NCBI RefSeq assembly: GCF_900090105.1
Contig: NZ_FMDM01000013.1
Span: 62,001-126,000 of the forward strand
From: Micromonospora humi
GTDB lineage: Bacteria > Actinomycetota > Actinomycetes > Mycobacteriales > Micromonosporaceae
DNA: 64,000 bases
Direction: 5' to 3'
In this document: piece after piece, positions 56,743-60,305 of the stretch
Layout of the letters: every line of letters begins with the position of its first letter
Numbering within the stretch: position 1 is the stretch's first letter
Notes under the pieces: model-generated
Seen by the model: only the letters and a program-made list of their open reading frames with translations
What the model was told of the DNA's origin: nothing
The model's database searches: none
Translations under genes and position numbers: made by a program

Positions 56743-56883
56743 CTCCGCCGGCGCCGTCGCCGCGGTCGCCCGGCAGCCTCGCACATCCGCCGGCCCGGTG
56801 CCGCACGCCGCCGCCGACCGGCGTTCACCGGATCGACACCCCTCACCCCGGGCACGGCAACCCGGGGCCCCTACACAGGACCC

Positions 56884-57663
56884 ATGGCCGTTCTGCACGC
56901 CGCTGGCGCACCCATCACGACCAGCGGTTACACCCTGCTGATCGCCGACGACCCGACACTGGTCGCGGCCGCGCAACGCCTGCGCCACGAGGTGTTCGCC
57001 GGGGAACTCGGCGCCACCCTGCCGCCCGGCGCCGCCGGGCTCGACACCGACGAGTTCGACGCGCACTGCGACCACCTGGTGGTGCTCCGCGAGGACACCG
57101 GCGAGGTGGTCGGCACCTACCGGCTGCTGCCCCCGGGCCGCACCGACCGGCGCTACGCCGACGGCGAGTTCGACCTGGGCCCGCTGGCCCCGCTCCGCGA
57201 CGACCTGGTCGAGGCCGGCCGCTCCTGCGTGCACCCGGACCACCGCACCGGCGCGGTGATCAACCTGATGTGGGCCGGCATCTGCCGCTACCTGCACCTG
57301 CGCGGGTCACGCTGGCTCGGCGGCTGCGCCTCGGTGCCGGTCGCCGACGGCGGGGTCGCCGCCGCCGAGGTGTGGGCGCAGGTCACCGACCGGCACCTCG
57401 CCCCGCCGCCGCTGCGGGTCACCCCGCGCCGGCCCTGGTTCGCCGAGGCGCCGACCGCCGCCGTCCCCGCCCCGCTCACCCCGGCCGAACGTCGGGCGCT
57501 CGTCCCACCGCTGCTCCGCGGCTACCTGCGGCTCGGCGCCTGGGTCGCCGGCGAACCGGCGTACGACAGGGACTTCGGCTGCGCCGACTTCTACGTGCTG
57601 TTCTCGCTGGACCGGATGAACCCGCGCCACCTGCGGCACTTCCTCGGTGAGGTGGCACCGTGA
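56884..57663 (+). CDS. olsB: OlsB-like ornithine N-acyltransferase (GNAT)
   Basis: Predicted 3-hydroxyacyl-ACP-dependent N-acyltransferase making lyso-ornithine lipid, or a related N-acyl amino acid. The 259-residue protein has the autoinducer-synthase-like GNAT core RLRHEVFAGELG, DEFDAHCDHLVVLRED, VGTYRLLPPGR and the strand VEAGRSCVHPDHRTGAVINLMWAGI, all typical of the PF13444/OlsB group. AGGA lies about 5 nt before the ATG. It overlaps the following acyltransferase by 4 nt (GTGA), the classical olsBA arrangement. Confidence 0.85.
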   Translation: MAVLHAAGAPITTSGYTLLIADDPTLVAAAQRLRHEVFAGELGATLPPGAAGLDTDEFDAHCDHLVVLREDTGEVVGTYRLLPPGRTDRRYADGEFDLGPLAPLRDDLVEAGRSCVHPDHRTGAVINLMWAGICRYLHLRGSRWLGGCASVPVADGGVAAAEVWAQVTDRHLAPPPLRVTPRRPWFAEAPTAAVPAPLTPAERRALVPPLLRGYLRLGAWVAGEPAYDRDFGCADFYVLFSLDRMNPRHLRHFLGEVAP

Positions 57664-58772
57664 CGCTGCTCGTGGACGACGCTCACCCGGGCCGGGTCGG
57701 CGTCGCCGCTCTCCCGGCCGGGGGCCGCCCGCCCGGCGACGGGCTGTGGCGGCCGGCTTCCGGCTGCGGGCCGTGCTGCCTGCCACCGCCGGCCGCGCCG
57801 GACGTGTCCGCCCCGCGCCGGATCGGCCGGCTGCTCGGCGTACTCGGAATGCTCGTGCTCGGTGCCGGTCTGGCCGCGTTGCTGCCGGTGTTGCCGGCGG
57901 CCGACCGGCAGGCCGCGTTGCGCGGGTGGGCCCGGCGGACGCTCCGCGTCCTCGGCGTGCGGCTGGTGGTCCGGGGCCGGCCGCCGCGCCGCCGCGCGCT
58001 GCTGGTCGCCAACCATGTCTCCTGGCTGGACGTCCTCGCCGTGCTCGCGGTGTCGCCGGCCCGGATGCTGGCCAAGCGGGAGGTCCGGAGTTGGCCGGTG
58101 GTGGGCGCGCTGGCCGCCGCGGCCGGCACCGTCTTCGTGGACCGGTCCCGCCCGCGCGACCTGCCGGCCACCGTCGCCCGGGTGGCCGACTCGCTGCGCG
58201 CCGGGCATCCGGTGGCGGTGTTTCCGGAGGGCACCACCTGGTGCGGTGCGGCGATCGGCTGCCGCCCCGGCCGCGGCTTCCGCCCGGCGATGTTCGAGGC
58301 GGCGGTGAGCGCCGGCGCGCCGGTGGTGCCGCTCACCGTCGCCTACCGGTACGCGGGCGACCCGAGCACGCTGCCCGCCTTCCTCGGCGCGGAGACGCTC
58401 TGGGCGTCGCTCCGCCGGGTGCTGGCCGCCCGGGGCCTGACCGTGGCGGTCACCGTCGCCGCCGCCCTGCACCCCGCCGACGGTGCCGACCGCCGCCTCC
58501 TGGCCCGCGCCGCCGAGTCCGCGATCCACCGGGCCCCGCCCCCACGGCCACGAACTGGCTGCCTGACCGCACCTTCCGCGCGGCGATCAAGTGCCGCCTC
58601 CGGGGCCCGGGCGTGTCGCGCCGGGAAAGAAGTTAGTCCCGAGAGCGGTATACCTCAGGGTCATAATTATGACTCTCAGGCATATCGCAGAAAAGCACAC
58701 ATCGATCCAGGAGTCGTCACGCGGCGTGAGGCTGGCGGGAATCGGGTCGGGAACGCGATACAGTCTTGTTAG
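57660..58772 (+). CDS. PlsC/OlsA-like 1-acylglycerol-3-phosphate or lyso-ornithine-lipid acyltransferase; frame probably shifted near the 3' end
   Basis: O-acyltransferase with motif I VANHVSWLDVLAVL (NHxxxxD), motif II VFVDRSRP, motif III AVFPEGTTW and motif IV VVPLTVAYRY, preceded by one membrane helix (LLGVLGMLVLGAGLAALLPVL). The open frame is 370 codons, but after about codon 295 the sequence loses its high third-position GC and runs through AT-rich promoter-like DNA. A one-base shift in the C-run near 58543 would end the protein in HGHELAA and a stop at 58564-58566, a normal length. The last ~70 codons are therefore doubtful. Confidence 0.82.
   Translation: MTLLVDDAHPGRVGVAALPAGGRPPGDGLWRPASGCGPCCLPPPAAPDVSAPRRIGRLLGVLGMLVLGAGLAALLPVLPAADRQAALRGWARRTLRVLGVRLVVRGRPPRRRALLVANHVSWLDVLAVLAVSPARMLAKREVRSWPVVGALAAAAGTVFVDRSRPRDLPATVARVADSLRAGHPVAVFPEGTTWCGAAIGCRPGRGFRPAMFEAAVSAGAPVVPLTVAYRYAGDPSTLPAFLGAETLWASLRRVLAARGLTVAVTVAAALHPADGADRRLLARAAESAIHRAPPPRPRTGCLTAPSARRSSAASGARACRAGKEVSPESGIPQGHNYDSQAYRRKAHIDPGVVTRREAGGNRVGNAIQSC
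58653..58680. promoter_or_regulatory. 28-bp imperfect palindrome around GTCATAATTATGAC
   Basis: A perfect 14-bp core (58660-58673) is flanked by partly symmetrical CCTCAGG/CTCAGG. It stands in an AT-rich patch after the real end of the acyltransferase gene and upstream of the DUF4097-PadR promoter. It resembles a repressor or activator site of unknown owner. Confidence 0.5.
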
Positions 58773-58795
58773 GTCGCGATGTATCGCGTTACGCT
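58752..58795 (+). promoter_or_regulatory. Promoter of the DUF4097-padR operon with palindromic operator in the spacer
   Basis: -35 TTGTTA (58766-58771) and -10 TACGCT (58790-58795) are 18 nt apart. CGCGATGTATCGCG (58775-58788) fills the spacer, and AACGCGATACA (58752-58762) is the exact reverse complement of TGTATCGCGTT (58780-58790). A repressor bound here would block RNA polymerase. Confidence 0.65.
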
Positions 58796-58845
58796 TCTTC
58801 CGCTACTCGACGTGTCGGGCGACACGTCGTCGAGGGGAGGACGCC

Positions 58846-59685
58846 ATGGCCAGTTGGACAGTCGACGGCCCGCAGCGGATCACGCTGGACGAGCCGGTCA
58901 CCCGGCTGGACGTCCGGCTGGTCAGCGGGCGGCTCAACGTGGTCGGCACGGACGGACCGGCCCGGGTCGACGTCACCCGGGTCAGCCGCCGTCCGCTCGT
59001 GGTCGAGTTGCGCGACGGGCGGCTGAGCGTGCGGCACGAGCGGTTCCCCCGCTGGCCGGGCGTGCTGTGGTGGCTCGGTCAGCTCCGTCGCCGGTTCCGC
59101 GCCGAGGTGTCGGTCGCCGTGCCCGCCCAGGCGCTGGCCGACCTGCATCTGGTCGACGGCGCGCTGGTCGCCTCCGGGCTGCGCCGGGACACCCGGGTCG
59201 ACGTCACCTCCGGCCAGGTCACCCTGATGGGGCTGCGCGGCCGCACCACCGCCAAGGTGGTCTCCGGCCCGGTGGAGGCGCTCGGCATCGGCGGCGAGCT
59301 CGACCTGGAGACCGTCTCCGGCGAGCTGATCCTGGCCGACAGCGCGCCCGATCGGGTCCGCGCCCACGCGGTCTCCGGCTCGATCACCTGCGACCTGGAC
59401 AACCCGCGGGGCAGCGAGATCAAGCTCAGCGCCATCTCCGGCAGCATCACCGTCCGGGTCCGCGAGGACAGCGACCTCAGCGTGCACCTGCACACCACCT
59501 CCGGGCGGATCACCAGCGGCTTCCCGCAGATCTGCGGCGGCCAGCACGGCTTCGGCGCGGTCAAGGACAGTCACGGGGTGCTCGGCGGGGGCGCGGGTAA
59601 GCTCTGGGCGTCCGCGACGTCCGGCAGCATCGCGCTGCTGGCCCGCCCGGTCCCGGACGCCGACGACCCGGAGGACCTGCCGTGA
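58846..59685 (+). CDS. DUF4097-family beta-helix-like protein
   Basis: A 279-residue protein composed of repeated short beta strands with a T/VSG turn (VTSGQVTLMG; VSGPVEALG; VSGELILAD; VSGSITCDLD; ISGSITVRV; TSGRITSGF; TSGSIALLA), the DUF4097/DUF4098 pattern of a right-handed beta-helix. No signal peptide. GAGGGGAGG precedes the ATG. A 9-bp inverted repeat CGACGTGTC/GACACGTCG sits in its 5' leader (58808-58829). It overlaps padR by 4 nt; such pairs are common in actinomycetes. Function unknown. Confidence 0.82.
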   Translation: MASWTVDGPQRITLDEPVTRLDVRLVSGRLNVVGTDGPARVDVTRVSRRPLVVELRDGRLSVRHERFPRWPGVLWWLGQLRRRFRAEVSVAVPAQALADLHLVDGALVASGLRRDTRVDVTSGQVTLMGLRGRTTAKVVSGPVEALGIGGELDLETVSGELILADSAPDRVRAHAVSGSITCDLDNPRGSEIKLSAISGSITVRVREDSDLSVHLHTTSGRITSGFPQICGGQHGFGAVKDSHGVLGGGAGKLWASATSGSIALLARPVPDADDPEDLP

Positions 59686-60305
59686 CCGCCGTGTTCAGCC
59701 ACGGGCGGCTCCGGCTCTACCTGCTCAAGCTCCTCGACGACGGGCCGAAGCACGGCTACGAGTTGATCCGCCTGCTGGAGGAGCGCTTCCTCGGGCTCTA
59801 CGCTCCCAGCGCCGGCACCATCTATCCCCGCCTGCAACGGCTGGAGGTGGAGGAGCTGGTCAGCCACACCGCGGCGGGCGGGCGCAAGGTCTACGCGATC
59901 ACCGAGGCCGGGCGCGCCGAGCTGCGTCAGCGCGCCGGCGAGCTGGCCACCCTGGAGGCCGACATCAGCGCCTCCGTGGAGGATCTCTCCGCGCTGGCCG
60001 GCGAGATCCGCACCGAGGTACGCGGCTCCGCGCGCGACCTGAAACGGGAGCTGCGCGAGGCGACCCGGCAGACCCGGCAGGGTCGCTGGACGACGCCACC
60101 GCCGACGGTGCGGCCCGGCGGCGACGGCGGCGGCACCCGTCCCGCCGGGTCACCGCTGCTCGCCGAGTTCGATCAGCGGCTGGCCGCGTTCACCGTCGAG
60201 GTCGGCGCGCTGGTGCGGGCCGGTCGGCTCAGCGACAACCAGCTCCGCACCGCGATCCGGCTGCTCGACGGCGCGCTCGACGGGCTGCGGCGACTGCTCC
60301 GCTGA
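59682..60305 (+). CDS. PadR-family transcriptional regulator
   Basis: A 207-residue regulator with an N-terminal PadR winged helix (LRLYLLKLLDDGPKHGYELIRLLEERFLGLYAPSAGTIYPRLQRLE in segments, about residues 9-54; wing VSHTAAGGRKVYAITEAGRAEL) and a long C-terminal helical part for dimerisation. It overlaps the DUF4097 gene by 4 nt and probably represses its own operon through the palindrome at 58775. Ligand unknown. Confidence 0.92.
   Translation: MTAVFSHGRLRLYLLKLLDDGPKHGYELIRLLEERFLGLYAPSAGTIYPRLQRLEVEELVSHTAAGGRKVYAITEAGRAELRQRAGELATLEADISASVEDLSALAGEIRTEVRGSARDLKRELREATRQTRQGRWTTPPPTVRPGGDGGGTRPAGSPLLAEFDQRLAAFTVEVGALVRAGRLSDNQLRTAIRLLDGALDGLRRLLR

Follow-up and report, generated by a model that had tools for sequence, protein, structure and literature searches.

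A conserved palindrome in the promoter spacer of a Micromonospora DUF4097-padR operon is the probable operator of its own PadR regulator

The window analysed here, a stretch of 64,000 nt from Micromonospora humi, contains an operon of two genes encoding a DUF4097 (Toastrack) protein and a PadR regulator, with a short palindrome between the hexamers of the preceding promoter (Table 1). The padR gene starts with GTG and overlaps the DUF4097 stop by 4 nt. Both products score above the curated Pfam cut-offs, the first as a Toastrack protein and the second as a PadR family member with its winged helix domain, and by eye no membrane segment was noticed in the DUF4097 protein. The structure model of the PadR protein (pLDDT 76.5, pTM 0.50) comprises a winged helix domain with the recognition helix at residues 44-56, a long helix at 85-133 and two more C-terminal helices; among PDB structures, PadR and LmrR proteins match it best. 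Downstream of padR follow genes for a response regulator and a kinase. A Pfam scan (E 0.001) of six neighbouring proteins, i.e. DUF4097, PadR, response regulator, kinase, acyltransferase and GNAT, revealed no HAAS (DUF1700) protein, the partner that characterizes HAAS-PadR systems.

Table 1. Positions of the promoter, leader and gene features of the DUF4097-padR operon within the window.
Feature	Position	Strand	Basis
Upstream half AACGCGATACA	58752..58762	+	perfect inverted partner of 58780-58790
-35 hexamer TTGTTA	58766..58771	+	T at the first position in 45, T at the second in 50 and G at the third in 46 of 50 genus loci
Candidate operator CGCGATGTATCGCG	58775..58788	.	unique in genome; identical in 50/50 genus loci
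-10 hexamer TACGCT	58790..58795	+	TANNNT in register in 50/50 genus loci and 60/61 named family loci with the exact site
Leader hairpin (putative), arms 58808-58816 / 58821-58829	58808..58829	+	fold z -3.8; covariation above shuffles
Ribosome binding site GAGGGGAGG	58832..58840	+	sequence; similar in leader alignment
DUF4097 (Toastrack) gene	58846..59685	+	PF13349, 35.0 bits, cut-off 22.9
padR, second gene of the operon	59682..60305	+	PF03551, 72.7 bits, cut-off 27; winged helix model

The region upstream of the operon (56872-58565) encodes a GNAT protein (Acetyltransf_5) and a PlsC-type acyltransferase, reminiscent of an ornithine-lipid pair. An acyltransferase match is found near padR in 40 of the 50 genus loci and in 35 of 53 other family loci. 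The acyltransferase frame of the window (57660-58772) crosses an imperfect palindrome of 22+22 nt at 58645-58688 (core 58653-58680) before reaching its stop at 58770-58772, between the -35 and the candidate operator. This imperfect palindrome belongs to a dispersed palindromic repeat found at 6 places of the genome with up to 3 mismatches (control 0); a 22-nt part of it is present at up to 2 mismatches in 11 of 61 genus genomes, and some copies have the outer ends GTGTCGCG and CGCGACAC, resembling a small mobile element. In several relatives the end of the acyltransferase (GCCTGA) is read well ahead of the promoter, and the repeat may have lengthened the tail of the frame in the window.

By direct reading, CGCGATGTATCGCG lies inside the 18-nt promoter spacer ahead of DUF4097-padR, and the placement between TTGTTA and TACGCT in the initial annotation is right in letters and coordinates. 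Two perfect 6-bp arms flank a non-palindromic GT centre; in this arrangement, CGCGAT-GT-ATCGCG, about one turn of the helix separates the two outer CGCG blocks. A generic sigma-70 scan called 0 promoters at this position since both hexamers are off consensus, and the promoter is therefore assigned from its conservation and not from the scan. Within the window CGCGATNNATCGCG has a single exact match, while its 5 matches at up to 2 mismatches do not exceed those in shuffles (mean 8.9). A genome-wide regulon search, as proposed in the initial annotation, returned one exact place for CGCGATRYATCGCG in 6,662,588 bases (6.66 Mb). At one mismatch 3 further places were found compared to 2 for the reversed control pattern; of these 3, two are located within long open frames and one is the own site of a PadR paralogue. 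On these counts a wider regulon in the same genome was rejected.

The palindrome is strictly conserved together with padR in the genus. Named relatives place the window within or beside Micromonospora. By our own count 45 of 61 genomes of this genus have an unambiguous padR orthologue (E ≤1.2e-90), and the exact 14-mer occurs in the same 45 genomes and in none of the 16 without the orthologue, while other PadR matches are present in all 61. It occupies 46 places in this set, 45 of them before padR. For comparison of the loci, 5 genus genomes from the family draw were added to the 45. All 50 loci share an unchanged 14-mer, centred in an 18-nt spacer, and a TANNNT -10 at a constant distance from it; the invariant positions comprise the 18 columns TCGCGATGTATCGCGTTA plus the last T of the -10. 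On the side of the protein, the recognition-helix region is nearly invariant among the padR orthologues.

Conservation extends to other genera of the family. Searching 1300 nt upstream in 53 other-genus loci, the best match to CGCGATRYATCGCG is exact in 45 loci and has 1 mismatch in 5, 2 mismatches in 1 and 3 or more in 2, and random resamples (first-order, not exact shuffles) gave 0 exact matches in 1030 trials over both locus groups. The palindrome is thus conserved in front of orthologous operons, as the initial annotation had required of an operator, in 50/50 genus loci and exactly in 45/53 loci of other genera. By our own count, the exact site is present in 60 of the 65 family genomes that have the orthologue and absent from the remaining 5, compared to 18 of the 85 genomes without the orthologue that contain it (Fisher ~1e-19). 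This is matched by a set of named family loci, many from the same species as the other family set, where 61 of 62 have the exact site; of these, 60 show TANNNT in the same register and 53 have TG in the -35. Two observations would agree with a palindrome that belongs to an unrelated regulator, e.g. the response regulator encoded downstream, or is a chance feature. A response regulator gene matches in the vicinity of padR in 49 of the 50 genus loci and 42 of the 53 loci of other genera, and among the 46 copies of the 14-mer in the genus one (G047) sits in an apparent coding frame. We regard such an origin as extremely improbable: the identity in 50/50 loci and the random resamples argue against chance, and the core of the site also accompanies PadR genes outside this operon (see below), for which the response regulator gives no explanation.

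In the wider class, 47 of 85 non-genus places were examined and 32 of the 47 loci carry an exact core, CGATRYATCG, upstream. Among the other 15, 14 have close variants by eye, for example a combination of CGCGACATATCTTGA at the -35 with CGCGACATATCGTG at the -10; the remaining locus (L125) ends 626 nt before padR and does not include the promoter. According to our reading of the promoters, in other actinobacterial families the related palindrome is shifted onto the -10 or doubled over the -35 and -10. In group f20 (probably Streptomyces) the site closely follows TTGAC, and the -10, TATCGT, might be provided by its right half; an exact core lies within 1400 nt of the match in 5 of 9 named Streptomyces loci.

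These positions bear on how a bound protein would act. MerR-type regulators activate transcription by twisting a slightly long promoter spacer. The PadR protein might bind the spacer and activate in a similar manner, as the spacer has 18 nt with a centred site in 50/50 genus loci. A PadR-like protein, PrhP, has also been described as a positive regulator (PMC6804342). The placement of the site on the -10, or doubled over the -35 and -10, in other families fits occlusion and not a fixed twist, and we consider activation very unlikely. A near-symmetric site which is fixed between the hexamers here and moves among lineages, yet stays on the core promoter, is better explained by steric repression.

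The distribution of the site was also compared with that of the two genes. No DUF4097 match was found nearby in 8 of the 103 genus and family loci. Seven of these are padR orthologues with the exact site 35-187 nt upstream, and the eighth (L108) is a divergent second padR copy with no 14-mer. In a further locus (L056) the DUF4097 frame is reduced to a 15-codon remnant between the palindrome and padR. Judged from these loci, the site is linked to padR and not to DUF4097. Of the 18 family genomes which contain the 14-mer without the orthologue, 14 were fetched, and in 6 of them the 14-mer precedes another PadR gene; counted by copies, this is the case for 6 of 20 fetched off-operon family copies (L136-L140, L142). 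Another 2 of the 20 (L144 and L154, from two other genera) lie near the start of DrrA-like ABC transporter genes, where the 14-mer (at positions 1495 and 1512, respectively) is accompanied by a second related site. These copies possibly represent an extended regulon.

The core of the palindrome is associated with other PadR genes in the same genome, which has 21 PadR Pfam matches, 18 of them over the cut-off. CGATRYATCG occurs 8 times at 7 places, compared to 1 for the reversed pattern, and 3 of the 7 places precede PadR genes: the DUF4097-padR operon, a pair at C16:173348/173361 before an Rv0047c-like PadR (C16:173430; PDB 8jxk, E 9.9e-59), and C37:104980 before another PadR (C37:105195). The binomial chance of this is ~1e-6 (1000 nt allowed); omitting the operon from which the pattern was derived leaves 2 of 6 places, with ~1e-5 (300 nt) or 1.5e-4 (1000 nt). 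A list of palindromes around the own PadR genes, which required 40% A+T and took distances from the PadR domain, was discarded because it failed to include sites known from the other searches.

Since two paralogues stand behind the same core in this genome and six family genomes have the 14-mer before a different PadR gene, the palindrome might be bound mainly by another PadR paralogue that shares the core, and the operon would then be cross-regulated instead of self-regulated. This is unlikely, as the 14-mer is missing in the 16 genus genomes without the padR orthologue, all of which have other PadR matches, and follows padR where DUF4097 is missing.

We therefore return to the operon's own PadR and consider it highly likely, on the strength of these comparisons, that the palindrome is the operator of this protein, which would block RNA polymerase and thereby repress its own operon. 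A PadR dimer is predicted to sit on CGCGAT-GT-ATCGCG between the -35 and -10 hexamers. In this position it would block RNA polymerase, and the operon would silence itself until PadR is released, perhaps when the Toastrack (DUF4097) protein of the same operon passes on a signal. Autorepression has been reported for the Listeria LltR operon and for other PadR proteins, with binding to their own promoters. The signal relay is suggested by published Toastrack proposals, as set out in parts of PMC11237479.

Autorepression had already been put forward in the initial annotation, together with an 11-bp inverted repeat across the -35. The conserved site at orthologous operons and its persistence with padR where DUF4097 is lost agree with autorepression, whereas the upstream arm of the repeat does not share this conservation. 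In the window AACGCGATACA pairs perfectly with TGTATCGCGTT (58780-58790) over 11 bp, with 17 nt between the arms. As the 11-mer AACGCGATACA occurs in only 2 of 50 genus loci, the repeat was ruled out as a conserved unit. A shorter half-site (CGCGACA, CGCGATA or CACGACA) is found in 33 of the 50 loci, mostly 19-21 nt before the operator, and the upstream half is probably a decayed second operator, given the second site that other families carry on the -35.

A second palindrome had been noted in the leader and is indeed present, with the arms CGACGTGTC and GACACGTCG and a 4-nt loop. Its sequence changes while the pairing tends to persist. The 50 loci contain 43 distinct stems, and pairing is kept above shuffles, so that a second operator at this place was rejected. 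Helices of 7 bp or more form in 45 of 50 loci compared to 26% of shuffled leaders, and covariation amounts to 36 double-change cells compared to 18.2 in shuffles. RNAalifold predicts 7 pairs (-3.96 kcal/mol) for the leader alignment. The leader fold in the window stands out (Table 1); over the 50 loci the mean z is -0.58, hardly better than shuffles, and 3 leaders fold at or under the 5% level compared to 2.5 expected. In Rfam (E ≤1) the leader gave one match, to a microRNA family with 16.7 bits against a cut-off of 80, which we take as chance. Because it varies in sequence and tends to keep pairing, the leader palindrome behaves like an RNA hairpin, a reading with modest support. We infer the transcription start of DUF4097-padR; a hairpin at the presumed 5' end of the mRNA could possibly be protective, although support for this is weak.

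The proposed operon can be compared with known PadR systems. In Listeria monocytogenes the PadR protein LltR, reported to be autoregulatory, is encoded with a DUF1700 and a DUF4097 protein, and in the lltR mutant lmo0599-lmo0601 are upregulated about 107- to 151-fold (PMC6624303, in part). As described there, a PadR gene and a DUF4097 gene share a single operon, as they do here. In the lltR operon padR is the first gene, separated from DUF4097 by a gene for a DUF1700 membrane protein, and the available description gives no operator. In Micromonospora DUF4097 comes first and DUF1700 was not found among the six neighbours scanned. Similarly, the HAAS-PadR systems with Toastrack (PMC11237479, in part) share the Toastrack protein adjoining a PadR regulator and differ by their HAAS protein, absent from the neighbours scanned here. 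For LmrR, bcPadR1 and cdPadR1, parts of two reports (PMC3506622, PMC5050560) describe inverted-repeat sites at or near the promoter -35/-10, the own promoter included, with ATGT-N8-10-ACAT-like or TACT-N11-12-AGTA sequences. The PadR fold and the inverted repeat at the -35/-10 are common to these systems and the Micromonospora operon, while the Micromonospora site is a compact CGCGAT-N2-ATCGCG. By eye, CGCGATGTATCGCG has no same-strand ACAT 8-10 nt past its ATGT, and thus differs from the ATGT-N8-10-ACAT pattern given for PadR-s1 and the LmrR operator in the available descriptions. The paired site of the PadR paralogue reads ATGT-N11-ACAT.

Among the open-licence papers listed, also for Rv0047c with PadR, none deals with a DUF4097-padR operon in actinobacteria, and among the matches listed in a search by the core letters none was about PadR by title. 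Autoregulated PadR operons are already known; we regard the present one, probably autoregulated and with a compact operator unlike ATGT-N8-10-ACAT, as a new form of them. To our knowledge, the targets of most PadR regulators are unknown, although these proteins are numerous. If our assignment is right, it provides a candidate binding site for the PadR-Toastrack operon of several actinobacterial families, and the apparent absence of a HAAS partner offers an opening to the effect of Toastrack on the repressor. The wider value of the finding is the motif, which would then predict which other PadR genes regulate themselves.

This aspect was followed in 10 other genomes, taking the first 20 places of the class listing for each type of centre, with one orthologous place omitted and tandem partners counted once. 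A PadR domain lies within 1.5 kb of 10 of 20 GT-, AC- or AT-centred cores compared to 0 of 20 GC-centred ones (Fisher 2e-4); two of the places (L291 and L292) share one genus, and dropping one of them gives 4e-4. Of the 10 associated cores, 8 are upstream on the PadR strand and 2 are not. We see an even chance that CGAT(GT/AC/AT)ATCG is a general actinobacterial PadR operator code, distinct from ATGT-N8-10-ACAT, in which paralogues would distinguish their promoters by geometry: one CGCG-ended 14-mer in the present operon, a back-to-back pair 13 bp apart before the Rv0047c-like PadR, and tandem sites 21-29 bp apart elsewhere. If such a code holds, the motif alone would locate self-regulated PadR genes.

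Two further occurrences of the core were observed. A PadR gene of Gemmatimonadaceae (L278) is preceded, ~150 nt before the match, by CGATATATCG, embedded in an array of TACGTACTATC-like repeats; this hints at a possible PadR site outside the actinobacteria and hence a wider range. At L181 (position 1501, G000:C17:195620), a core site together with several CGATACAT-like repeats is located between divergent genes which, by eye, are aminotransferase-like and glycosyltransferase-like.
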